From assembly GCA_963281255.1 (NCBI GenBank), contig OY725491.1, positions 3,596,001-3,660,000 of the forward strand: DNA of 64,000 nucleotides, in the 5' to 3' direction. Below the pieces are notes generated by a model. The model did not search any database, was not told where the DNA came from, and saw only the letters and a program-made list of their open reading frames with translations. Below, piece by piece: positions 7,735 through 61,336 of the stretch. Both the position numbers and the translations under genes were made by a program. The stretch's first letter is position 1, and each line of letters starts with the position of its first letter. Source of the stretch: Aphrocallistes beatrix. Taxonomy: Eukaryota > Porifera > Hexactinellida > Sceptrulophora > Aphrocallistidae.

Positions 7735-10394
7735 ATGATCTCCTTAGAGTTGTGGAGATCCCGGATTGGGGGTTATATTTCTAGAGGAAGAAAGGGTAAG
7801 TGTACTAAAGCCACAACAAATCTTTTTGCAGGATTGAAGTGCAGTTTCAGCTCAATCTTGCGAGTAGTGCTGGTAGTGCTCCTCATTATTGGCGGAGTCG
7901 AGCCAAATCCCGGGCCTCCGAAGAAGGTGATTGAAAGCGAACAGACAGCTGCAGAGACAATGGAAACGCGTGAGGATTTGAATTTATCCGATACTTCTGA
8001 TGTTTTTATATTACCGTCGCCCGTTACTATGCTGAAACCTCCTTGCCGAGGCCGTAGAAAGTTTGGGGATAGAAAAAGAGCCAAAATATTCCCACGAGCC
8101 AGTTTTAGTTGTGAAACAAGTGAGTCAGATGATATTATTTGCGCAAGTCAATCGAGTGTAACTGAGGACCTTGAGTTATTCTGTAAGATACCCAAATTGA
8201 CTCAAGCTAGTAGTGAGAGTTCACTTGAAATTCTACCTACTATACCACCTGAAATTCCTACTAGCTCCACCTGTTCCGTAGTTGACGAACTAACAACTGC
8301 GCAGAAAAAGCTAAGGTCCGAAGTTCAAATAGTACCTACCCATTATGAAGAGGTCCAATATATGAATTTAGATAAATCAGGCGAAGAAATCTTGAATTTA
8401 TCTCGACTGTCGATGAGCATATTTGATTGCGACATCCTTCGTCATGCCATCAGTAAAATGTTCAAATGCAAACACTGTAAATGTAGCAATCTACGATTCT
8501 ATAAATCCACATTTACAGCCGGAATTGTAGAACATATTTATATAATTTGCGAAGGGTGTCATTCTGGGACCGACTTTTACAACTCTACTCAAACTCATTC
8601 CGTAAAAAAACATTTCGCAAACAATATCTTGCAATTGCTGGGGGGACGTATTATTGGTGTTGGTAAATCTGGTCTCGATCTTTTGAATTCGATTTTGGGA
8701 ATCCCGAAAACACTAGGCAAGAGAGCATTTTATGAGATCCAATCCTATGTGAGTGAAGTTGCAACTAAGGTTGCCCGAGATAGCTGCAAGAGGGCATGCA
8801 ATGAATTGCGCCGGAAATTTGATGTTCCCGAGAATACAATGTTAGAGGTTGAAGTTTCATATGATGGTGCATATCAAAGGAGGGGAGGGTCTAAAGGAGG
8901 TGGTCATTCTCGTTATTGTTTTTGCCAGTGCCATTAGTACCGAATCTGGGAAAGTACTAGATTTTGAGATCGCGTGCAATTCATGCCGACAATGCACAGA
9001 AAAACAACAGGCACTGAGAAATGGCAGAGTAACACGAGATCAGTATGTTGAGTGGTTCAGTAAACATCAAAAAAATTGCCAAGCTGATGAATATGGTGAC
9101 ATAAATTCTGTTGGAGTCAAAACTAGCACCCGTAATCTTTAAAAGATCAGTTGAACAATATCTTATTTATTCTGCTGTGATTGCTGATGGTGATGATAAG
9201 AGCATTTTAATGTTGAAAGAGAGGAATATATATTCCGAATACCTGATTGATATCTCTAGAAAAGAATGTTTGTCACATGTCCAAAAACTTATAAGAATTC
9301 ATTTGATTGAAAAGCAGAAAGCTTTTGTTGAGAAGATGAAAACTGAAATGAACAATCTATTAGCCCAATGTAAAACTAAGAACGAAGAGCAAAAGATCAG
9401 GGAAAATTATAGAAGAAAAACAAAACGAGATCTAAAGCACGATCGCGAAGCTTGGGGTTCCGTTCAAACTATATCTGAAATAAATCTTTTGAGCGACGGG
9501 ATGATCGATAAAATAACATCTTTATATGGGCTTGTTATCAAAAATAGTCACGATCAACCGGTGTTAGACATCCAAAATGCATTGATTGGCATTATAAACA
9601 ATCTATCGGCAAATGAACTGAATTGCGAAGAAATGCATAAATTTTGCAAAAAAGGGAAAGAGTCATAGTGTAATTACCAGAAAGCCATTGCATTAGACAA
9701 TGTTCCACCACAACATCCAAGTTTTCTCACTGATGAATGCCGTAAACGTGTCCTTGATATCTTGGCCCCTTATATGAGCGAGAACTTTTTAGTCAAAGTC
9801 AAAGGTGGCAAAACATCTAATCTAAATGAAAATCTTCATAAGCTCATTTGGGAACATGTTCCTAAAACTGGTTCAGTCGAAGTTGAATTGATGAATTTAG
9901 GCGCAGCACTTGCTATCATTCGATTCAATGATGGGTGTTTAGGTTATCTGAGAGTATTTGAAGAATTAGGAATTCAACCAAAAAACACCTTCATAAATAT
10001 CCTGGTTGAAATAGATAGGAGGAGAGTAGCTCACTCATTCCAAGTTGATAGCGTATTGAGCAAAAAACACAAATGGAGTTTGAAAAGGAGTAAGCGACTT
10101 AGGAAGCGTACTGGAAAGGGTTATAAGAGTGGGTCATATTCGGCCGTCGTGGCTTCTATTCCTTTAGATTCTGATGATGACTCAGGCGAAGATAATTGTG
10201 CCATATGCTGTGGGACTGAACAGACTGGAGTAATCAGAGATGGTGGCAGATCTAAAGATGATGAGGATATCTGGTTACAGTGCGATATCTGCCGAGACTG
10301 GTCTCATTTCTTTTGTCTACGACAGACCAAACACCTACTCGAAATACCTAAGAAAGAAGAGCTATGGTTCTGTCCAAGATGTAACAGAAGCTGA
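7735..10394 (+). pseudogene. Mutator-like transposase with N-terminal 2A-like motif and C-terminal PHD finger
   Basis: Starts at an ATG (7735). A hydrophobic stretch, ILRVVLVVLLII, runs straight into GGVEPNPGP (7891-7917), the 2A-like ribosome-skipping signature, so translation would release a short signal-like peptide. A disordered acidic region follows. Then comes a CxxC pair (FKCKHCKC), and the MULE core: SYDGAYQRRG with the first Asp, TESGKVLDFEIACNSCRQC, and ADGDDKS with the second Asp. LNENLHKLIWEHVPK follows with the Glu. The C-terminus (about 10190-10390) is a C4HC3 PHD finger (CAICC...CDICRDWSHFFC...WFCPRC). Three lesions kill it: a one-base insertion in the T run near 8921-8926, a frameshift near 9110, and a TAG at 9667-9669 where relatives have Trp. 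The frame resumes directly after the stop. An AATAAA follows at 10492. Confidence 0.8.
7796..7831 (+). other. Candidate 36-nt intron in the MULE gene
   Basis: The sequence starts GTAAGT and ends TTTTTGCAG, a strong donor and acceptor. The length is divisible by three, so the ORF is open whether or not it is spliced. Splicing would join K-G to L-K-C and bring the hydrophobic 2A leader closer to the start. Confidence 0.5.
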
Positions 10395-18902: not shown

Positions 18903-20256
18903 CACTAGCGGTCAAAAAGAATTACACACCTCTTTTACATTACTTATATTCAATAGTAATTGATAATTCAGTAATGCGAGAAGCATTATTTTAGTACACC
19001 CAATATTCAAATCCAGTTTATATAATACTATCACATTTGAGTTACTTTTTGATGCATTTTCAAATAATCTGCTAAAATATTTCCAAACTAAAAAATACCT
19101 GTTTTTCAATTTTTGATGAATTCCAGACCTAGAATCAGCTTAGAAGACCGTGGAAAAATTGTTGTACTGTCTGAGGAAGGCTATTCTTCGAGACAAATTG
19201 GTGCAAGACTCAAATGCAGTCACAAAAGTGTAGCACTGATTCTGAAAAAGAAAAAACTGAACGGTTCAGTCAGTGACCGCCCGATTCCTGGGCGAACCCG
19301 AAAAACAACTCGCAAAGAGGACAGTATTATTGTCAGAAAAAGCAAATCTGACCGCTTTAAGACAGCTCCACAGGTTCGAGCAGAAGTAAAAACCCAGTAT
19401 GGTATTCATGTATCAATTTCCACTACCCAGCGAAGACTCAGAGAGGCAGGACTGCATGGACGAAAGGCTAGGAGAAAACCTAGGTTAACAGCCCTTCACA
19501 AAAAGGCCCGACTCGAGTTTGCTAAAGTTCATAGGGACTGGACTAATGAGCAATGGTCGAAGGTGATTTTTAGTGATGAATCACGATTCCTTTTATATCG
19601 TTGTGACGGGAGAGTGTATGTGAGACGGATGAAGGGGGAAGACTTTGCTGAAAATTGCATCCAGACAACTGTCAAACACGGGGGAGGAGGCATCATGGTA
19701 TGGGGTTGTATCACTACAAATGGTGTTGGATTACTTTGTAAAGTAGATGGAAAGTTGAATGGAGAGTCTTACATTAATATTTTAGAGAACTCATTAATAC
19801 CTTCAATACATTTGCACTCATTGACTGACATTTCAATATTCCAGCAAGACAATGCCCCTTGTCACCGGGCCCGCATTGTGAAGGATTGGTTTGAAGCCGA
19901 AGGTGTCGAAGTTATGAAGTGGCCAGCGCAATCCCCCGATTTGAACCCAATCGAGAACCTTTGGGAACAAATAGGAACTAAAGTCCAGCTCCAAAATCCA
20001 ACAAACCATATGGATTTGTGGTCTGAAGTGAGAACAGCCTGGGATCAAATCGAATCGGAGAAATTAGTCAATCTCTTCCAGAGCATGCCACGTAGGTGTG
20101 AAGCAGTAATCAAAGCTAAGGGGGGCCCAACTAGATACTAATGATCACAACAATTAATATTTTGTCAATTCGATACATATAAATACATATAGCAGTTAAA
20201 AAAACTAGTAAATATTGAAAATTCTTTACTGTGTAATTCTTTTTGACCCGCTAGTG
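18903..20256 (+). mobile_element. Tc1-like element, intact (1354 bp)
   Basis: Ends CACTAGCGGTCAAAAAGAAT and CACTAGCGGGTCAAAAAGAA (complement of the right end) with TA on each side (18901-18902 and 20257-20258). Carries one uninterrupted transposase. It has inserted into the OTU gene of the Ginger element. Confidence 0.9.
19116..20141 (+). CDS. Tc1 transposase (DD34E), intact
   Basis: An uninterrupted 341-residue protein, the usual length for the family. The start used is ATG at 19116. The N-terminus has a paired-like double helix-turn-helix (residues about 5-50 and 65-115) joined by GRTRKTTRKED. Catalytic residues are Asp154 in VIFSDESRF, Asp245 in FQQDNAPCH and Glu280 in SPDLNPIENLWE, with the expected 34-residue gap between the last two. 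MVWGCI is conserved between them. With both terminal repeats present this is likely a recently active autonomous copy. It acts in the nucleus, cutting its own ends and inserting at TA. Confidence 0.93.
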   Translation: MNSRPRISLEDRGKIVVLSEEGYSSRQIGARLKCSHKSVALILKKKKLNGSVSDRPIPGRTRKTTRKEDSIIVRKSKSDRFKTAPQVRAEVKTQYGIHVSISTTQRRLREAGLHGRKARRKPRLTALHKKARLEFAKVHRDWTNEQWSKVIFSDESRFLLYRCDGRVYVRRMKGEDFAENCIQTTVKHGGGGIMVWGCITTNGVGLLCKVDGKLNGESYINILENSLIPSIHLHSLTDISIFQQDNAPCHRARIVKDWFEAEGVEVMKWPAQSPDLNPIENLWEQIGTKVQLQNPTNHMDLWSEVRTAWDQIESEKLVNLFQSMPRRCEAVIKAKGGPTRY

Positions 20257-45473: not shown

Positions 45474-47083
45474 CTATGAACTACTGTAATAAAATGGATC
45501 GAAATGGTATAGCATGTCGCTGTTGTGTGGTCGATGTAGTACTACACGTAACCTCTGACCATTAAAGGTAGGGTCACATAGGGAAATAGTGGGCACAATA
45601 TTGTGTGCATAAATGGTGTCCACTCTCCAAAACTGGTGATCATTATTAGTTGCATTGATCACTAATAAATATTTAGATGTGCTAGAGCACCACATATAGC
45701 TAATTCTACATTCGTACCCCATTCGCTTGGAGTATTGATTAGCTCAAAACGATCGTCCAACTCCTCTTCACTTGTAATCCCAGACATGTGTATGACATTT
45801 AAAGTGTGTTCTGGACTATTACAGAATTTTGTAATCAATTTTGATCTCAAATCGTCGTAATGTTTCTCAGTACCAAATATGATATGAGATAAAGAACGGT
45901 AAAGACAATTACCTTCCCCAATGACAGGACACAGATTTAAAGTGTCCCCAAACATTTGTGATAGCCGTATTCGTAGGGATCTATAATATAGTCCTAAACA
46001 GATCAATAATATTCACAAAAGTGTTCTCATAGACTGCAATCAACTCAGGATTCATGTCAATGCTTATGGCTAACTGAGTCCTCAAGTTCTGTGAGAAGCG
46101 ATTGACAGTACCTGTAGAGATACTGCTGCTCTAATAGGAATTGAGGGTTGACTGGGAGCTGGATCCCTATCATATCTGTCATCCTCGGAGCGCCTCCGTA
46201 AGTCTGCAGAAGAAAATGAAATTTCACTCAATGATATATCCATTTGAGAAAGATCCATGGTATCATTAAGGGATGGATTGATATTATGGTTTTGGAATCC
46301 CTCAAGGTAGACCACATTCCTAATCCAAACGCCACCCGAAGTGGAATAGTTTGCCCCGCAAACCATTACTTTCAAGCCCTTAGGGTTCTTAACTCGACTT
46401 AGGGCAACGTACAATTGCCCATGACTGAATATAGCATCAGTAGATGCTAGAAAGATACCAACAGATTCTAGACTCTGCCCCTGCCCTTTGTTAATTGTTA
46501 TACAATAGGCAAGGCGAATGGGAAACTGTTTCAGTCTGAGAACAAACGGAAAATCTGTTTCAGATGGAGTCATTATAAATTGCGAGGAATGAACACTCGT
46601 TTGCCACAATCGACACCTGTGGCAATTTCAACATCTATAACATTGTTTGAAAATTCTAATTAACAATCGCGTGCCATTACACATCCCATTCGTGGGATCG
46701 AGACTGCGCAAGAGTATAATTGACGCATACTCCTTAAGGTAGAGGCGGTGTGGAGGCAAGCTAGTGACGTAATAGAATTAAGGTATTCAGTAGGATACAT
46801 AGCTGTCTGACTGGTATCTACTGAGTCTGCACTCAGTAATACCTTTACTTCACCAGGAAGTTGATCAACACGTATTTATTTATCGTTTCAGGTGCTCATT
46901 TTTAGGAGACATCATAATACGCGGCGTGATGTAATAACGATCATTAAAGTGTTCTTTAATGTTACCATATATAGCAGTGGCTAAGTCTGCAATATACTCA
47001 CCACGTACTACATATTTGTGATCTAGTAAATGAATCATGTTATTCTCATCATGAGGCTCAGTACCTTCTCCTACCCTCAATAA
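45474..47083 (-). pseudogene. Helitron helicase C-terminal half and OTU domain
   Basis: It continues the gene interrupted at 47083. LLRVGEGTEPHDENNMIHLLD and DLATAIYGNIKEHF belong to the helicase. A decayed block follows with VLLSADSVDTSQTAMYPTEY and NGMCNGTRLLIRIF. Then come [20 protein letters not shown] and [20 protein letters not shown], helicase motifs V and VI. After a linker ([20 protein letters not shown]) an OTU protease domain follows: VIGEGNCLYRSLSHIIFG with the catalytic Cys, then TNVELAICGALAHLNI. The last exon-like piece ends near 45474. Stops and frame changes separate the blocks. Confidence 0.78.
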
Positions 47084-47117: not shown

Positions 47118-47148
47118 TTAAGCACAGTGGTTTATTGACAGGGAGTTG
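47118..47148 (+). promoter_or_regulatory. Left end of RAG1-like element: duplication TTAAG, heptamer CACAGTG, conserved GGGAGTTG
   Basis: TTAAG (47118-47122) is the target duplication. CACAGTG (47123-47129) is the terminal heptamer, continuing GTTTATT as at the other end. After an 11-nt spacer, GGGAGTTG (47141-47148) is also shared with the other end. Confidence 0.88.
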
Positions 47149-47729
47149 ACCAATTTTTTGACCTCTTCTGATCTCATTAAAAACGCTTTTATCGTGTTCA
47201 GCATACTCTAGAACCTAGGTAACTGCATTTGCAGTTAAAAATTCCGAGCAGAATTAGAAATATGATGCAGGATATACAGTTGAATGGCTAAATATAGATT
47301 GAGAAATTTTGTGGTTTCAAAATCATGCATCAGTTCAAACTCGTGTTACTCGTTTGGTTTATATTAGAATGAGTTAAGACTTTCACAGTGTCTAATTATA
47401 GTATAAATCATCCTAAAACTGTTGAATACTCCTTATATAATTGATTGACCTTCAGTACAATTTTCATTGAAAGATATGATTCGCTGAAAGTGTCCGAACT
47501 TAAATTATTTGCATTGATAGTTCGTAAACTTGTGGTGTCGTCTCATGTCGTGTTAGTAGTCCTATTTTTATCTAAAGTTTAACCAATTAACTTGAATTTT
47601 AACCACTTTCCAGCCCCGCGCAACCCCGCGCAAGTGGAAATATTTCAGTATATAAATGCTCGCCATCAATATTACATACTATTTAGTGCTATTTCTTTAT
47701 TAAGACTACAAGCTTTTCTCTATACCAAA

Positions 47730-49868
47730 ATGAATAATCGAGACGCTTGGGACTACCTCTCAACTAAGGATTCCGTACGTGATGCTGCTAAGGCATTTAT
47801 GCAAGAATTTCGAATAGAAGAGAATGAATACGAACCTATTCGACATAAATTCAATATTCTCAAATCGACCAGGGATTCTTCGAGAAAGGTAAAGAAATTG
47901 GAAGAATGGGAGAACAATACATTTTTTTCGATACAATCAGCACATCCCACAAAGAAGCGAATTCTAGCGGAAAAGGTCATAATTGAATCTGATCTATCAA
48001 TGGAAACAAAAAAGCCTTTATCCCAATTAACCATAAAAGCCTTACGAGCAAGGCTTAATCCGCTTTTAAATTTAATCGACTCTTTCGCTGTCAAAGAAGA
48101 AGTAGATCCGAAAATAATTGCCACCTACGCTCTAATGCTCATATCTAATCTCTCGAAAGATGTAAATACTTCTAGTGTTTGCAAACAAATCATAGCCAAG
48201 GGGTCATTTACAAATGAAATTAATCCCATGCCTATTGATAAGTCAGCATTCATGCTTGACCTACTTGAAATAGGGAGGCGAAAATATACCAACTTTAAAC
48301 GTCTTTGTAAATCTGAAAATATCATATTCCCATCCTATTCTAAACTAGCACAATATCGCCATAATGTCAGCCTAACTAATGAGTTAGTATTCGTGCATAA
48401 TGAGATGAACGTAGCGATCGGCATTGCGGTATCTTATAAAAGCATCCTTCATCATAGTTTAATACGCCTGTTCGAAACACTGCCTCCACTTTCAGATTCC
48501 CAATTTCCTTTAACCATCAAAATTGCCGACGGCCTTGATGGCTCAGGGTGTCATCAAATTTACAATCAATATGAATTAAACCCAACATCCAGCACAAAAA
48601 ACTACATACTATTCGCGTTTAAATTACTCTCCATTTTGGATTCAGATAACAGTCAATTGTGGATAAATAATATCCCGAATTCACAATTTGGAGTTAGGCC
48701 TGTTCTATTAACGGCCCAGAAAGAGTCCATCGATAACGTCAAGTTCATCATGGAAAATATCATCAACCCAGAAGTGAATACCATTGAACAATTGGGTTTA
48801 CAGTTCCCACAAGGTCACGTCCATGTAAAGATCATTCGAAGCATGCTCGATGGGAAAATGAGTGGGATTTTAAGTGGTGCTGGAGGTGCGCACTGTCAAT
48901 TATGTACGGCAAATATCAAAGACCTTAAAGATATCGAAATGGTTAGGGCTGGTTTCCCGATTAACAGACATATTTCTGACGCAAAGGAACTGTTTGGATA
49001 CGTTGATAAGGACGAGTACCTTAGCCTTACTTCTAGCCAAAGGTTGGGAATAACGCACGAACCAATTTCAGAAATAAACATCATGGCAGCTTCACCGCTT
49101 CACAGTTATACATGTGTTTTTCGATGGTATATGCTATTAATATATCATTTACAAGCTGGAAGATCGATATGGTCACCTACATCGAAGCATATAGAGACTT
49201 CAAGAAAATTTTGTAGTGAATTCCTTCTTGAGAAAACTGGTTTAAGGATTGATCAACCTTCAAGTGATGGTGGAACAACTTCAACAGGAAATGTCGCTAG
49301 ACAGTGTTTTTTAAATAAAAACAATTTCATATTCCATGCATCCACACTTGTTCCAGCCGAAATTAGAGTTGAGTTGGGTCTCATTCAAAATAATCTCTCT
49401 GCAATTTTAAGGATCTATAACAGTAGCCAAGAAATCGATACTGAGAAATTAGAAACTCTAGCCAAAGAAACTTATGAAATCATTCTTACCACCTTTCCAT
49501 GGGCAAATATAACACCTTCTCTACACAAGCTACTAGCCCACTGTGCTGAATTGATACGGGACTGTAACGATGGCTACGGTTTAAAGGAATACTCAGAAGA
49601 AGCGGTGGAGGCTTGTCATAAACTAATTCGTCGATTCAGAGAGCATCTCTCCCGAAAAAATTCCTTCACGTATAACATCAAAGATGTATTCATACGTCTT
49701 CTTAGCCAGAGCGACCCGCTTCTCTCAAGCTACCGAAGAACTTTAGTTTGTAAGCATTGTGGTCAAATAGGACATATCAGGAATATGCAATGTAAAGGTA
49801 ACCGAGTGGCATCTTTAGAGCAGGAAAAACTAGTTGACTCTCTCATGCTCCAAAATCTTAATATTTAA
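47730..49868 (+). CDS. RAG1L: RAG1-like DDE transposase, intact
   Basis: The first ATG (47730, context CCAAAATGA) gives 712 residues; the frame is open further upstream but without an ATG. Candidate catalytic residues are Asp267 in IKIADGLDGSG, Asp374 in IRSMLDGKMSG and Glu627 in SEEAVEACHKLIRRFRE. The gaps (107 and 253) match RAG1 D600-D708-E962 (108 and 254). CQLC at 389-392 and HKLLAH at 599-604 match the RAG1 zinc ligands (CxxC and HxxxxH). KLIRRFRE parallels RAG1 KLFRRFRK. The C-terminus has C674-x2-C-x3-GH-x5-C688, a zinc knuckle like the tail of invertebrate RAG1-like proteins. The RAG1 RING region is absent. RAG-type enzymes nick at the heptamer and form hairpins. An alternative label is Transib transposase; the tail favours RAG1-like. 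Intact, hence young. Confidence 0.82.
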   Translation: MNNRDAWDYLSTKDSVRDAAKAFMQEFRIEENEYEPIRHKFNILKSTRDSSRKVKKLEEWENNTFFSIQSAHPTKKRILAEKVIIESDLSMETKKPLSQLTIKALRARLNPLLNLIDSFAVKEEVDPKIIATYALMLISNLSKDVNTSSVCKQIIAKGSFTNEINPMPIDKSAFMLDLLEIGRRKYTNFKRLCKSENIIFPSYSKLAQYRHNVSLTNELVFVHNEMNVAIGIAVSYKSILHHSLIRLFETLPPLSDSQFPLTIKIADGLDGSGCHQIYNQYELNPTSSTKNYILFAFKLLSILDSDNSQLWINNIPNSQFGVRPVLLTAQKESIDNVKFIMENIINPEVNTIEQLGLQFPQGHVHVKIIRSMLDGKMSGILSGAGGAHCQLCTANIKDLKDIEMVRAGFPINRHISDAKELFGYVDKDEYLSLTSSQRLGITHEPISEINIMAASPLHSYTCVFRWYMLLIYHLQAGRSIWSPTSKHIETSRKFCSEFLLEKTGLRIDQPSSDGGTTSTGNVARQCFLNKNNFIFHASTLVPAEIRVELGLIQNNLSAILRIYNSSQEIDTEKLETLAKETYEIILTTFPWANITPSLHKLLAHCAELIRDCNDGYGLKEYSEEAVEACHKLIRRFREHLSRKNSFTYNIKDVFIRLLSQSDPLLSSYRRTLVCKHCGQIGHIRNMQCKGNRVASLEQEKLVDSLMLQNLNI

Positions 49869-49976
49869 CTTAGTATAAAACCTTAGTATGGCACTTGTAA
49901 GCTGTAGTTTAGTTATTTAGGTTATATATATGCATTTAGAAGCTTACTTTGATCATCTATAAATGTGTGTGTGTGA

Positions 49977-49982
49977 AATAAA
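49977..49982 (+). promoter_or_regulatory. Poly(A) signal of the RAG1-like gene
   Basis: AATAAA about 110 bp after the stop codon, followed by an A run, still inside the element. Confidence 0.6.
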
Positions 49983-50152
49983 AAAAATTAGCAAATGTGA
50001 AAATTAAATAATGGGTGTGTAAAAAATAAAATGACGTCATACCTCAAAACTCTGAAGCCATACAAGTATTTTGAGTTCACTAATTGATTACTAGGTATGG
50101 ATAACCCATAGGTAAATAATACATTTTATAGCTCTATCTGGTCAGGAAATAC

Positions 50153-50192
50153 CAACTCCCTCTGAAGGGCTCAAATAAACCACTGTGTTAAG
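50153..50192 (-). promoter_or_regulatory. Right end of RAG1-like element: GGGAGTTG, heptamer CACAGTG, duplication TTAAG
   Basis: Read on the minus strand: CACAGTG (50187-50181), then a 20-nt spacer, then GGGAGTTG (50160-50153). The duplication TTAAG follows at 50188-50192. The spacer is 9 nt longer than at the left end. Confidence 0.86.
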
Positions 50193-50687
50193 CCCCCCCA
50201 GTTTTTTACCATCAGTTAGGGTTTCTTCAAGACAACCCATCATTGGTGGGGCTATCCCCTCCCAAAAAAATTAGGTTCTCCCCTGGCTTGAATTACATTT
50301 GTAATCCCTCCGCCTAATGTTGGTGAGAAATTGGATAACCAATCTCTTGATTTAATTCTATACCGGAAGTTTTCTCGTCCTCCATAATAGAAACATCCGG
50401 AAGTTGAGATTTCTTAAACCAGGTGAGTATTGACATTGTGCACGAATTATAGAGCTTGTGTCAAAACCAAAAACTAGTATGTATATATGTATTCGATTTA
50501 GATATAAAAACAAACACAATTGAATAATTAAAATGTAGTAATTTTAAAAAGGTTAATGTCCAGGATAGTCTAAAAAATCGACAATTAAAATATTCAATAA
50601 ATAAAATGGCAAATATAAATATAACTTCCACATCGATTTTTAAAGCCCCCCCACTTTCCAAAAGGTGTCTATGGCCCTGTTCAATAA

Positions 50688-53600
50688 AGGTCAGAGAAGT
50701 TACTCACCTCTTCATGATCCTGACATGAATCCATTCGAAGACGCATATTTACGTCTTCGAATGGATTCATGTACAATTTCATCACTTTGACATGGTGCCA
50801 AAGTGAAGATCTGTTAAGGCAGGCTGATACGACTTCGGCCCTCGATCCACGCCTAATGGTGGGTAGGATTTGTCTGAAGTCACCTCCAGATGCAATAACT
50901 TTGCCGCAAAATGGTAGATCATTGGAGCAGAGATCACTCAATGACCGATCTATATATTCAGCAGCATGTTTATGCATCATAGGAGCTTTATCTCAAACTA
51001 AAAGCTTAGCACCCTGTATAAGTTTGGGTAAAGCACTCTGTTTAGTGATATTACACACAGATAGTTCATTCAATGTGATAGGGACTTTAAACGTAGAATG
51101 GACAGTTCTCCCGCCTTCTAGGAGGAGAGCTGCTATTCCAGATGAAGCCATTGCTAGTGCTATTTCATTCGGGAGCGAATCTTAGCTAACAATGTATTGC
51201 ATAAAAATGTTTTGCCAGTCCCCCACCGGGACCGTCAACCAAAAATGCTTTGTTTTCAGCAATAGGATTGTCTATAGACTCCATAATACAGTTATATGCA
51301 CTCAGCTGATCAGGGTTCAGTAAAGGCACGTTGGTATCTGCAATTATGGCTAGTTCAGGTACATCATAAGCAAGTTCATCTTGAATGATGCGCGGTAGAT
51401 CAAATGGACTCCTATCTTAGTGGGGATAGGCATTCCAGGATAATCGGACCAAGATTTTCCAAGAGTCGGTAGCAGGATTCAGTAGCAGAAACATAGGGCG
51501 CTTCAAGATAATTGACAATCTAATCGACGTCCATGGTTGCTTTGTTAGTGCTACTTCCAGCACTATCACCAATACGAAATTCGACAATAGCTCTATCATG
51601 GCCCTTATACACAGACTTATAAAGGTATTTAACAGCACTAATGGTAGAGCAAATCTCAATATTTATATGAGCAATGTATTTAAAAGTAAATAAGGGTTGT
51701 ATGGAACAACCCACCTATTGTTCAGCTGAATCCCAATTACAATAACTGTACGGCAGTTATTTCGACGTTTGTACATAAGATAGCTGTCATTACCGGTTGT
51801 GGGTAAACTGAGAAAATACTTTGGGGTATTTCTTACCGCATTTTCCATCGCGTATACAGGCAGCATGTTTCCTTACTACGCCGCATGGACTGTGAATCAT
51901 GCAGCACTTCACAATATGATAAAGTCTAGGGTTGAGATCCTTGTCAGGAATCTCAGCACAGACTATCTTATCATACATAGTAGGATCTCTAGGTTTATCC
52001 TGATCAGATAGGATGATCAGGATATGTGCATGAGGGAGACCGCGCTTTTGAAACTCGATGGTGAATACATGCGCGAGTGGTCTCCCTAGAACATGCTTAA
52101 CGCAGATGTCATTAAGCAGTTCACGCAATTTCATTCTAAATACTTTTATAGTTAAGTCTGGACGGTCAGTCGCTTTCTGATTGAATAAAAGAGCAGAAGA
52201 AATATCTTTCCATTTCGGGTTATATGTAAATGCAATAAATCAATCAGGTTTACCGTATTTCCGTACGATAGACATACTGTCCTGATAGAGCTCGAACATC
52301 TGTCGAGGATTGCCCAGTGTAGGAAGAAGGTAGTATGATCCTCTTTCCATACGCCATAGGATTAACGTCACCTGCAGACACTGCATTGGCCAGGCCTTTC
52401 TATAGATCCACTCTGATCTTTTCCTGATTTAACTTTATGTAGTTCAACCTTTGCTACTCAACTTTAGCGTACATGTCCACGATGTACGGGTGGAACAGTC
52501 TGCCAAAGAGATGCAGATAGCTCAGCGAGCTCCTCAACATCAGGCGGTAAGTTTTGAATTCCATTGCAGTAACATAGCCTTCCCCTCTACTGTGGGGAAT
52601 GCCCAGGTGCAAGCCGTTATCTCCTGAAGGAAACAATAAAACATAATGGAGGCCATCGTATACACAATTGGTTTCAGTGATACGTTTTAAACCGCCTGTA
52701 CGTGCATGTAGCACTATATCCCTGGCTGCAACACCTCAGTGTAGCCATCTCCAGGCATTATGACTGCTATTTCGGGAGCAGTTGAAGCGTTGTAGCGTCT
52801 CAGATCTGGTGCACCATCAACTCTGATGTTCATCCTAACGTCCACTCCCTCCTTGTCTCTCATCATAGCGACACCTTGTCAGAAGTGAGAGACGTAGGGG
52901 TTTATTTCATGCAGCAATTTCTGCAGTAGTCGCAGGTCGGGGAGACTTGCATCTCCAAGGTGCCGCTGGCGATTCTCCAGCTCTCCCTCAGGAGTACCAT
53001 CATGGATGTAAATTTATGCAAATGAAGGAGCTTCTCCTACTCGAGGAGTCAGCTGCCCAATGTAATGATGCATAACACCATGGATATAGAATGTGTACAC
53101 TCCCCGCATAGTGCTAGCTAACTCTTTATCGAGGTTAACGCCGAGTGAAGCGAACGCTAGAGCCGAATTATAAGTTCGAACGTGCTCTCTGAATGCTCTG
53201 CCTCGACTGTCAGTAACCGTCAGCAGATGCATCAGCAGCTCCGGAGGAGAAGGTAAGGCGGGAATGACCACCTTCCCTTGTCCGCAGCAGAGGGAAAACC
53301 TGAAGTTATCCTTAGTGCTAGTGGAGAGTTTTTCATTCTCCCAAAATTGAGCATTACAATGTGAACAGGGATATTCCATTCGACCAACTGAAAATTCGTC
53401 AATTATGTAATCAGAAGTTTCAGTTACTTGCATAGAACGTGCAAAATTAAGGAATGTAAAATTAGCTTTAGACCTCTGTAAAGAGCTCTGCTTTGTATTC
53501 CTAGCAGTCTGGTACTTCAATTGCGCTTCAAGCCGCTCACCCTTCTCCTGAGAGCTCTGCATCTCGCGATAAATAGTCTGGTAATTCAGCTGCGATTCAA

Positions 53601-59040: not shown

Positions 59041-61336
59041 CAGGTGTGTCAAACTCGAATCGGATAGTGGGCCAATTTCATAACCCCAACTCTTCCCCGG
59101 GCCATGATAGAGATGAATAAATTTTAACTCCTGATTCATTCAATTATCAAGCTAATAAATCAACTTTTCACTTTTGTCTGCTTATTTGGCAGCGTTTCTC
59201 TTTCACGAGCTCATCTAGATTTGGTGTGATGGGCGAAATCGCTAGTCGGAGGGAGGAATCTAGATGACCATCCGTAAGTCGTGATTGATGTTTCGACTTT
59301 GTTATTTTCATCAAAGAAAAGCACTGCTCGCAGGCGTATGTACTGCCAAACTGCACACCCCAAAAATATGCATTTTCCATTATTTTTGGAAACTGGTATT
59401 TATTAATCGTATAAAGTAGCCTGTAAAATCCTTCTAAGTTAAGTTCTTTGAATGAACCATTGAGACTTAAGCGACTCTGAAAGTCCAAAATCTCTAGTTG
59501 GAGATCTGGGTTATCATCAAAGTCTTCTGCATTAACAGCAAACGGTCTGCTAAAGAGCGCCAGGCTGCGTTCTCTTCCTCTAAGATCGTTGAATCGATTT
59601 TCGAAATTATTAGCAAGTACATCGAGATGATTCTCGTATCGTTTATAAAAGTTTGCAGGTGGGTTTTGAAACTCATTAACTAGCGAACTCATCGTCTTGA
59701 AGTGTATCAATTTACCTTCCTTCATCTGGTTTCTGAAGAGGGTGACTTTCATTTGAAACCCACGCACATTCTCCAAAAGAACAGTAATTAGTTGATCACG
59801 TCCTTGCAGTCTGGTATTTAGTGTGTTCAGATGTTGAGTGATGTCCACTAAAAATGCAAGATCCAATTGCCAATCTCTGTCAGACATTAATTCTGTAACC
59901 AAATCACCTCCTTTTGATTTCAAATTAAGCATTTTCTCCTTCAAAAATATTTCAATCTCTGCACGCAATTTAAAGAAGCATTCCAGTACTTTTCCTCTAC
60001 TGAGCCAGCGGACTTCACAAAGGTAAAGAAGGTCTCTATACTCCGTGTCGAGTTCTTCCAAGAATGCTTGAAATTGCCGATGCTTCAATCCCTTTGATCG
60101 AATTTCGTTTACAATCCTTACAACAGTATCCATCACATGAGTCATTTTCATTGCTTTCCCACAGGGCACTTCCTGGTGGATGATACATGGAACACTGAGA
60201 ACATCTTGCTTGGAGTGATCTCGATGAACAAATTTCTTGATAAGAGCTGCTGCGCCATTCTCTTTTCCCATCATCGCTGGTGCTCCGTCTGTCGTGATAC
60301 CGGCTAGTTTCTTCCATGATACATTGAGAATTCTCTCTGCAACCACTTTTACAACAGCTTCAGCCACATCAATACCCCTGATACAATCATTAAGGCCAGC
60401 TAGTCCAAGAAAATCCTCATGGATTTCAAAGAAGTCGGTTATCCCACGTATGAAAATGGAGAGTTGAGCAGTGTCTGTAATATCATTACTCTCATCGAAA
60501 GCAAGCGAGAAAAAGACAAACTTCGCTACTTTTTCTAATAATTGCACTGCAATGTTTTTTCCCAAGTCCTCGATCCTTGACGCCACAGTATTCCTGGTAA
60601 GACTAATCATCTCAAAAATGTTCTTCTTGTCGGGAATAAGAATCGCCACTGAATCTTTAATACAGTCTTTTATAAAATCTCCATCAGAGAATGGTCTTGA
60701 ATGCTGGGCAATTTTCCGCGAAATTACATAACTAGCCTTGACAACGGCCAGGTTATCCTGAATAGGTTTCCTAAAGACACCCTGTTGCTTCAGTAAACCA
60801 TCACGTAGTTTGGCAACTGCTTCGTCCCTCAATTTTCCAGTCAATTGTCCATACTCGACCTTGTGATATGATTCATAGTGCCGCTTCAGGTTGTAATCTT
60901 TCATCGCTCCCAAAACCTCTTGGCAGATCAGGCAAGTAGGCTTCCCATATGTTTCAACAAACAAATTCTTTAAGATCCATTCCTCTTGAAAATGACGACT
61001 ATCCTCTTTTCGTTTCTTGGCTCTCGGGAAATTAGCCATTCATGTATAATTTATTGAAGGGTGAGGAGGTATAAAATGTTTTTGAATTATTCGAGCAATT
61101 ATTCTGATATTTATATTTAACGCTCTTAGAGAATGTTATAGTGTGTTAGCAAAACAATGAAAATATAACAAGTGAATCACATTAACATCTATCAAAACTA
61201 GTTAGGTTTCATTAATAAATGATAATTGAATAAATGATATCATATTCCAGATATTTTTTCGCAACTGGGTCGCGGGCCACCTCTGAGCAACCTGCGGGAA
61301 ATAAATGGCCCGCGGGCCACCAGTTTGACACGCCTG
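59041..61336 (-). mobile_element. hAT transposon, intact (2296 bp)
   Basis: Ends CAGGTGTGTCAAACT and CAGGCGTGTCAAACT (complement). Perfect 8-bp target duplication ATTTACAC (59033-59040 and 61337-61344). One uninterrupted transposase gene inside. Confidence 0.94.
59168..61039 (-). CDS. hAT transposase (BED-finger, GTF2IRD2/ZBED-like family), intact
   Basis: 623 residues from an ATG at 61039, uninterrupted. A BED-type zinc finger occupies residues about 34-60 (Cys36, Cys39, His54, His59). The RNase H-like core has Asp182 in LAFDESNDI and Asp251 in GITTDGAPAM. A CIIHQE segment and [18 protein letters not shown] follow, typical of this group, and Glu571 lies in YACEQCFSLMKI. Domesticated relatives in vertebrates include GTF2IRD2 and ZBED proteins. 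The protein binds the element ends and inserts it with 8-bp duplications. Complete ends, perfect duplication and open frame suggest a recently active autonomous copy. A fragment of the same family is at 31711. Confidence 0.93.
   Translation of the reverse strand: MANFPRAKKRKEDSRHFQEEWILKNLFVETYGKPTCLICQEVLGAMKDYNLKRHYESYHKVEYGQLTGKLRDEAVAKLRDGLLKQQGVFRKPIQDNLAVVKASYVISRKIAQHSRPFSDGDFIKDCIKDSVAILIPDKKNIFEMISLTRNTVASRIEDLGKNIAVQLLEKVAKFVFFSLAFDESNDITDTAQLSIFIRGITDFFEIHEDFLGLAGLNDCIRGIDVAEAVVKVVAERILNVSWKKLAGITTDGAPAMMGKENGAAALIKKFVHRDHSKQDVLSVPCIIHQEVPCGKAMKMTHVMDTVVRIVNEIRSKGLKHRQFQAFLEELDTEYRDLLYLCEVRWLSRGKVLECFFKLRAEIEIFLKEKMLNLKSKGGDLVTELMSDRDWQLDLAFLVDITQHLNTLNTRLQGRDQLITVLLENVRGFQMKVTLFRNQMKEGKLIHFKTMSSLVNEFQNPPANFYKRYENHLDVLANNFENRFNDLRGRERSLALFSRPFAVNAEDFDDNPDLQLEILDFQSRLSLNGSFKELNLEGFYRLLYTINKYQFPKIMENAYFWGVQFGSTYACEQCFSLMKITKSKHQSRLTDGHLDSSLRLAISPITPNLDELVKEKRCQISRQK

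Follow-up and report, generated by a model that had tools for sequence, protein, structure and literature searches.

Transposons of the Transib superfamily, which carry no RAG2 gene, have long been on record and are said to have been described by Kapitonov and Jurka in 2005. Their ends start with CAC and their insertions are flanked by 5-bp duplications, according to PMC7204232. The RAG2-binding alpha11-alpha12 region of RAG1, which lies in the zinc-binding domain, is kept in Subgroup I and bacterial Transibs and lost in Subgroup II, and a position intermediate between Transib and RAG1L has been proposed for the Subgroup I elements (PMC9435367; sponges are unnamed in its main text). Here we describe an element in a window of 64,000 nucleotides from the sponge Aphrocallistes beatrix (assembly GCA_963281255.1, contig OY725491.1, positions 3,596,001 to 3,660,000 of the forward strand; coordinates below are counted from the first letter of this window). 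Judged from sequence comparison, it is very probably a complete glass sponge member of the Transib superfamily of cut-and-paste DNA transposons, with a single gene, and most likely belongs to the RAG1L-proximal 'Subgroup I'.

The transposon is 3,065 bp long (47123-50187) and its termini match perfectly over 14 bp. The 5' terminal inverted repeat, block 1 (47123-47136, plus strand), reads CACAGTGGTTTATT, the first seven bases being the consensus heptamer of the recombination signal sequence (RSS); its exact inverse forms the 3' end (50174-50187, minus strand), and the same repeat is found at the ends of other copies. A perfect TTAAG target-site duplication was read in the sequence on the left (47118-47122) and on the right (50188-50192). 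An inverted-repeat search of the window extended the match to 27 nt at 85%, the portion beyond the element ends being host DNA. The insertion point is the centre of a host palindrome, GGGGGGCTTAAGCCCCCC. Empty sites were sought in the sponge's own genome (100.5 Mb, 28 contigs) using the two flanks joined with one TTAAG and the element left out, with 40 of 65 candidates scored. This query matched at least 40 places, 19 of which cross the junction without the element and two of which are the window's own flanks; another 19 match the left flank only, ending approximately 35 bp before the junction. The two element-free sites that were read both have a single TTAAG within the palindrome; they belong to copies of a host repeat and are empty sites paralogous to that of the window. 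Palindrome targeting was considered and dropped, since only one of 11 compared insertion sites, the window's own, looks palindromic. No preference for GC-rich targets was seen in the 11 target-site duplications compared.

The DNA search with the element, in which 40 of 66 candidates were scored, returned at least 88 segments grouped into at least 37 places. The search with the transposase protein, for which 63 of 399 candidates were scored and which also included other families, returned at least 76 segments at at least 48 places. A near full-length copy on contig C2, 98.3% identical, begins and ends as the window copy does and is flanked by a perfect duplication of another sequence, CCCCG. 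Because this second copy shares the ends and has a duplication of its own, and because many copies are present in the genome, the transposon is confirmed to be complete and more than a chance pattern. The preliminary description of this DNA had reported inverted ends that begin with the RSS heptamer CACAGTG inside a perfect TTAAG duplication, and had proposed collecting further copies and empty TTAAG sites. These observations are borne out: the ends match over 14 bp, the second copy has its own duplication, other copies share the ends and were not found to terminate elsewhere than at CACAGTG, and two empty sites have one TTAAG.

Compared with the window copy, the C2 copy has a broken gene, in which an insertion of 4 bp shifts the frame, 12 bp are deleted and two stop codons occur. 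In several copies of about 1.5 kb both end regions are retained and most of the gene is gone; among these, duplications are perfect in L013 (the same as L028) and L021 (the same as L030), and match at four of five positions in L010. Scoring of the duplications required CAC...GTG tips, and loci with decayed or missing tips, such as L012, L015, L011, L016, L019 and L024, were left unscored. A second family, B, is about 3.42 kb long and encodes a protein 44% identical to that of the window's family, A. Over 3.4 kb, the B copies L034, L036, L037 and L051 share 99.3-99.8% identity with L035, and partial or older copies include L039 (99.5% over 2.7 kb), L038 (98.6% over 2.4 kb), L046 (96.7%) and L052 (96-97%). 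Frames of 726 residues are open in L035, L036 and L037 and broken in L034 and L051. Since the B copies are this similar over 3.4 kb, three of them with full frames, the sequences suggest recent transposition, of family B above all. The 5-bp duplications known from Transibs were found in both long A copies, in four of five B copies whose two ends were both read (CCATT, CAAAT, GAAAA and TAATT; L036 is the exception), in one family C copy (TAGCC) and in one family D copy (CAAGA). The terminal repeats likewise start with CAC and are heptamer-like, the 5' end of family C being CACAATG. The ends of two further loci, L063 and L064, were looked for and not found. Clustering by relatedness lumped nearly all loci and was not used, and the count of TATAAA in L001 (12, with 9.5 expected) was uninformative.

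The transposase gene is one open frame on the plus strand (47730-49868), with an ATG at 47730, a stop at 49868 and 712 codons free of stops; the frame of 758 residues in the list of open reading frames (ORFs) starts at a TTG upstream of this ATG. ORF, Pfam, PDB and profile searches place the protein in the RAG1/Transib superfamily. Searching the PDB with the window protein gave HzTransib of Helicoverpa zea as the best match (E = 5.2e-27), followed by lancelet RAG1L (3.9e-5) and the RAG1 chain 3jbw (0.0041). With a three-family profile the values were 7e-41 for HzTransib, 2.6e-13 for RAG1L and 5.1e-13 to 4.3e-9 for RAG1 chains, and the isolated RAG1 nonamer-binding domain (3gna) was a weak match at 0.033. 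With hhalign, a profile could be matched to the mouse RAG1 core in one collinear stretch 535 columns long, at 23% identity with E = 1.4e-6 and a probability of 90%; confidence was low near the alpha11-alpha12 segment. Residues 93-151 (48006-48182, plus strand) align in the profiles with the RAG1 nonamer-binding domain, 16 of 66 positions being identical to mouse RAG1. These comparisons support homology of the protein to RAG1 over the greater part of its core. A Pfam RAG1 search of the whole genome gave 19 weak matches, none above the cut-off, an NCBIfam search of the transposase gave no useful match, and relatives sought in viral and prokaryote genome contigs were not found.

Inside the window element there is no second sense ORF of at least 60 residues, and a search of the genome gave no RAG2 match, the control genomes being equally silent. 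Since no second gene was found in it, the element is a Transib and not a RAGL transposon, which would have the RAG1L-RAG2L gene pair. A single gene for an HzTransib-like transposase is what is seen in Transibs.

All three catalytic and all four zinc residues of RAG1 are present in the alignment, each on the plus strand: the catalytic residues D270 (RAG1 D600; 48537-48539), D374 (D708; 48849-48851) and E627 (E962; 49608-49610), and the zinc ligands C389 and C392 (C727 and C730; 48894-48905) and H599 and H604 (H937 and H942; 49524-49541). The DDE spacings are 104/253 in family A, 103/254 in B and 105/257 in C, compared with 108/254 in mouse RAG1, 110/252 in lancelet RAG1L and 99/211 in HzTransib. 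Much of the difference from HzTransib in the D-E spacing falls between ZnC2 and the next conserved LH motif, at the position of alpha11-alpha12 (48906-49100, plus strand). This stretch measures 65 residues in A, 66 in B, 65 in C, 64 in RAG1, 60 in RAG1L and 30 in HzTransib, the HzTransib values here and for the spacing including 13 chain residues unprinted in the alignment. A pattern search demanding 30-90 residues without a stop found the stretch to be 65-67 residues long in 13 distinct sponge fragments, several of them from the same families. By length and alignment, the alpha11-alpha12 region that characterizes Subgroup I appears to be present.

Near the C-terminus lies a putative zinc knuckle, CKHCGQIGHIRNMQC (CX2CX3GHX5C; 49749-49793, plus strand; zf-CCHC E = 0.034, below the cut-off), which also occurs in families B and D. 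The motif of the RAG1L C-terminal tail is given as Cx2Cx3GHx4C in PMC7204232. At the positions of mouse R848 and E649, the aligned window protein has T517 and Q319. In RAG1, R848 and E649 both restrain transposition. Selection of R848 in vertebrate RAG1 is mentioned in PMC9435367. As a separate observation, the family C transposase (L040, on contig C17) is open over 720 residues, has Gln 623 at the position of the second zinc histidine and is without the knuckle.

The transposase had already been described as intact, and a profile search against RAG1, RAG1-like and Transib families had been proposed. The 712 residues without stops agree with the former; the search placed the protein in the RAG1/Transib superfamily, with HzTransib best and lancelet RAG1L and RAG1 following, and not in another DDE superfamily. 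Of the spacings first given, 107 and 253, the second stands; the first had been counted from D267, and alignment with RAG1, RAG1L and HzTransib gives D270 and a value of 104. The view of the element as a living relative of the RAG recombinase holds as to the relation, but the kind is already known and identity to RAG1 is low (74/341). The relation to RAG, true as it is, is not new in itself because Transib-superfamily transposons without a RAG2 gene were described long ago.

Inward of block 1, a second block is placed differently at the two ends. In family A this block, AGGGAGTTG, starts at position 18 from the 5' end and at position 27 from the 3' end. The window copy has AGGGAGTTGA at positions 18-27 (47140-47149, plus strand) and, from the comparison of the ends, AGGGAGTTGG at positions 27-36 (50152-50161, minus strand), a match of 9/10 at an offset of +9. 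The second block of family B, AAAGAATAGG, is different from that of A, is identical in both ends and again starts at 18 and 27. Matches as good as the observed one were reached by 13 of 1000 shuffles for A and 1 of 1000 for B, in a block comparison that was chosen after the ends had been seen. Asymmetric ends were thereby detected in two of the four families, A and B, with C and D not above shuffles. By eye, block 2 is unlike the RSS nonamer. The ends of AanRAGL consist of a 13-bp element, spacers of 4/13 bp and a 10-bp element (PMC9435367), which puts the start of its block 2 at 18 and 27, the positions seen in families A and B. Transibs with asymmetric ends were already known, namely all of those in Subgroup I and some of those in Subgroup II (PMC9435367), and 12/23-like ends are listed for some fly and mosquito Transibs (PMC8355894).

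Taken together, the RAG1-like spacing, the segment of alpha11-alpha12 length, the knuckle and the two-block ends appear to fit published Subgroup I Transibs. In the mechanism we propose, two transposase subunits would recognize both ends via CACAGTG and the second block, which begins 18 bp from the 5' terminus and 27 bp from the 3' terminus. Recognition would depend on the N-terminal region similar to the nonamer-binding domain and on the C-terminal knuckle. The RNase H site formed by D270, D374 and E627 would nick beside CACAGTG and make hairpins on the flanks, chemistry that we infer from knowledge of Transib and RAG, and the excised element would be joined to its target with a 5-bp stagger that yields the 5-bp duplications. 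End recognition of this kind, membership in Subgroup I and present-day activity are likewise what we infer. A broader interpretation, possible in our view and offered tentatively, concerns these non-bilaterian, RAG2-less Transibs as a group. Where their ends have two blocks, block 2 of one end is shifted by 9 bp, close to a turn of the helix; in both A and B the shorter spacing is found where the gene starts, and the positions are those of the algal RAGL element. A 12/23-like pairing rule might then reside in the transposase alone and predate both RAG2 and the RAGL transposons. If true, the sponge elements would be material for testing such a transposase-only rule.

Comparison with described systems shows where the element resembles and departs from each. 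HzTransib (PDB 6pqn and others) likewise has one gene and a RAG1-like catalytic core and is the best PDB match; it differs in its spacing (99/211, as opposed to 104/253 in the sponge element), in the distance from ZnC2 to LH (30 residues, as opposed to 65) and in its ends, which PMC8289069 calls symmetric. With Subgroup I Transibs, compared by their published description (PMC9435367), the sponge elements have in common the segment of alpha11-alpha12 length, a CCHC-type tail, asymmetric ends in two families and the lack of a RAG2 gene; the X5 spacing of the sponge knuckle and the two sponge families without detectable asymmetric ends set them apart. The RAGL transposons ProtoRAG (BbRAG1L) and AanRAGL are alike in core homology, in the D-E spacing of BbRAG1L (252), in the knuckle of the C-terminal tail and, for AanRAGL, in the block 2 starts at 18 and 27. 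Unlike the sponge element they carry a RAG2L gene, their block sequences are not alike, and the spacers of ProtoRAG are 27/31 (PMC8289069). Vertebrate RAG1 and its signals share the identical heptamer CACAGTG, the homologous core and, with families A and B, an asymmetric two-block signal. In vertebrates, however, the spacers from the heptamer are 12/23 as opposed to 10/19 in the sponge element, whose block 2 is not nonamer-like, and RAG1 acts with RAG2 and has R848 and E649 where the sponge protein has T517 and Q319.

Several observations weigh against the preferred reading. The Pfam RAG1 model (PF12940) scores 22.5 for the window protein, below the cut-off of 25, with family B also below (18.3) and family C above (26.9). 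Core identity is slightly nearer HzTransib (92/341) than RAG1L (84/341) or mouse RAG1 (74/341), and HzTransib itself reaches 80/341 to RAG1L and 72/341 to mouse RAG1, so the window protein is hardly closer. By identity, then, it is a Transib no nearer RAG1 than HzTransib is, and its RAG1-like signs are architectural. The knuckle has X5 before the last cysteine in A, B and D as against X4 in RAG1L, it is missing from family C (L040), L043 and L056, and family C has Gln instead of the second zinc histidine. As for the ends, the +9 match is 7/10 in family C, tied with another offset and reached by 843 of 1000 shuffles, and family D matches best at other offsets, with 216 of 1000 shuffles as good. 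In family A, 13 of the 14 distinct 5' ends (the remaining one had a poor ungapped match and was dropped) and 12 3' ends were aligned. Conservation of block 2 does not exceed that of the spacer (5', 0.95 vs 0.96; 3', 0.93 vs 0.92), and inward of block 2 it is lower (0.82 and 0.90). Asymmetric ends neither hold throughout nor discriminate Subgroup I, since they also occur in part of Subgroup II and are not found in all sponge families. Finally, the window copy has the sole open full-length family A gene found, the second long A copy being broken.

One alternative is an ordinary HzTransib-type (Subgroup II) Transib that resembles RAG1 in these lengths only incidentally. In its favour, HzTransib gives the best match in sequence and, by a narrow margin, the highest core identity; asymmetric ends may occur in Subgroup II as well, and two of the four sponge families show none. 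We regard this alternative as unlikely, given that the 65-67 residues between ZnC2 and LH in the 13 sponge fragments resemble RAG1 (64) and RAG1L (60) and not HzTransib (30), and that a CCHC knuckle stands at the place of the RAG1L C-terminal tail. The same RAG1-like spacing, alpha11-alpha12-length segment and knuckle, together with the AanRAGL-like spacing of the ends, could instead mark RAG1L proper, the element then being a RAGL transposon from which the RAG2-like gene was lost. RAG1L and mouse RAG1, however, are identical at 126/341 core columns, far above the value of either against the window protein (84 and 74), and neither the genome search (with its silent control) nor the element's ORFs revealed a partner gene, which makes this origin very improbable. 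Domestication of the transposase as a host gene would account for the frame still being open at the window copy. Its likelihood is close to negligible: both ends and the duplication are intact, the second copy is 98% identical with its own duplication, and many relics and internally deleted derivatives exist. Between the window and second copies, 10 codons differ in residue (two of them stops) and eight differ silently, which gives no sign of strong constraint.

The preferred reading, a Subgroup I-type Transib in a glass sponge, bears on which RAG1 traits (the RAG2-docking segment, asymmetric signals, transposition-permissive residues) preceded RAG2. Open full-length glass sponge copies would provide an early-branching animal source for the biochemistry of these traits. 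Our literature search found no paper naming Transib together with Hexactinellida and, judged by titles and abstracts, no apparent report of a sponge Transib under sponge or Amphimedon; the Oopsacas minuta genome paper (PMC10280926) does not use the word Transib in its main text. Judged by the literature so covered, the host could be new for Transib; hundreds of metazoan Transibs are listed in the supplement of PMC9435367.

The element landed in repeat-rich DNA. Helicase pieces flank it on the minus strand, the one at 50681-50980 matching PIF1 (2.6e-22) and the one at 46082-46609 matching a helicase weakly; a Helitron origin for these would be a guess. Further away, a Mutator-like transposase piece (PF20700, 1.1e-16) lies at 7735-10394 (plus strand), a region that also contains, after this piece, an ORF with a PHD finger (PF00628, 8.8e-7). 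The sequence GGVEPNPGP in the N-terminal part of the Mutator-like piece resembles a 2A peptide. A Tc1/mariner-type transposase frame of 342 residues (HTH_Tnp_Tc3_2, DDE_3) is open at 19113-20141 (plus strand). At 59168-61039 (minus strand) there is an open frame of 623 residues with weak DUF4371 and Spin-doc zinc finger matches, both below the cut-off, which resembles a ZBED/hAT-derived protein.

The mitochondrial contig of the assembly (C28, 17,996 bp, of which the first 10,000 bases were read) encodes atp9 and uses TGA for tryptophan. In its cox1, AGA stands at positions that are commonly serine, and ATA where isoleucine is common. The cox3 gene (L062, 8806-9590) leaves its frame at TGG codon 140, and the +1 frame from GGA continues cox3-like. 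For the mitochondrion of Aphrocallistes vastus, PMC2267718 reports atp9, AGR as serine, AUA favoured for isoleucine and, at position 140 of cox3, a +1 frameshift that leads from UGG to GGA. Since the code, atp9 and the codon 140 frameshift match those of A. vastus as given there, they point to a hexactinellid host. The cox3 gene here seems to need a second +1 frameshift, at TGGA about 40 bp further on; one, at the same codon 140, is mentioned for A. vastus in PMC2267718.

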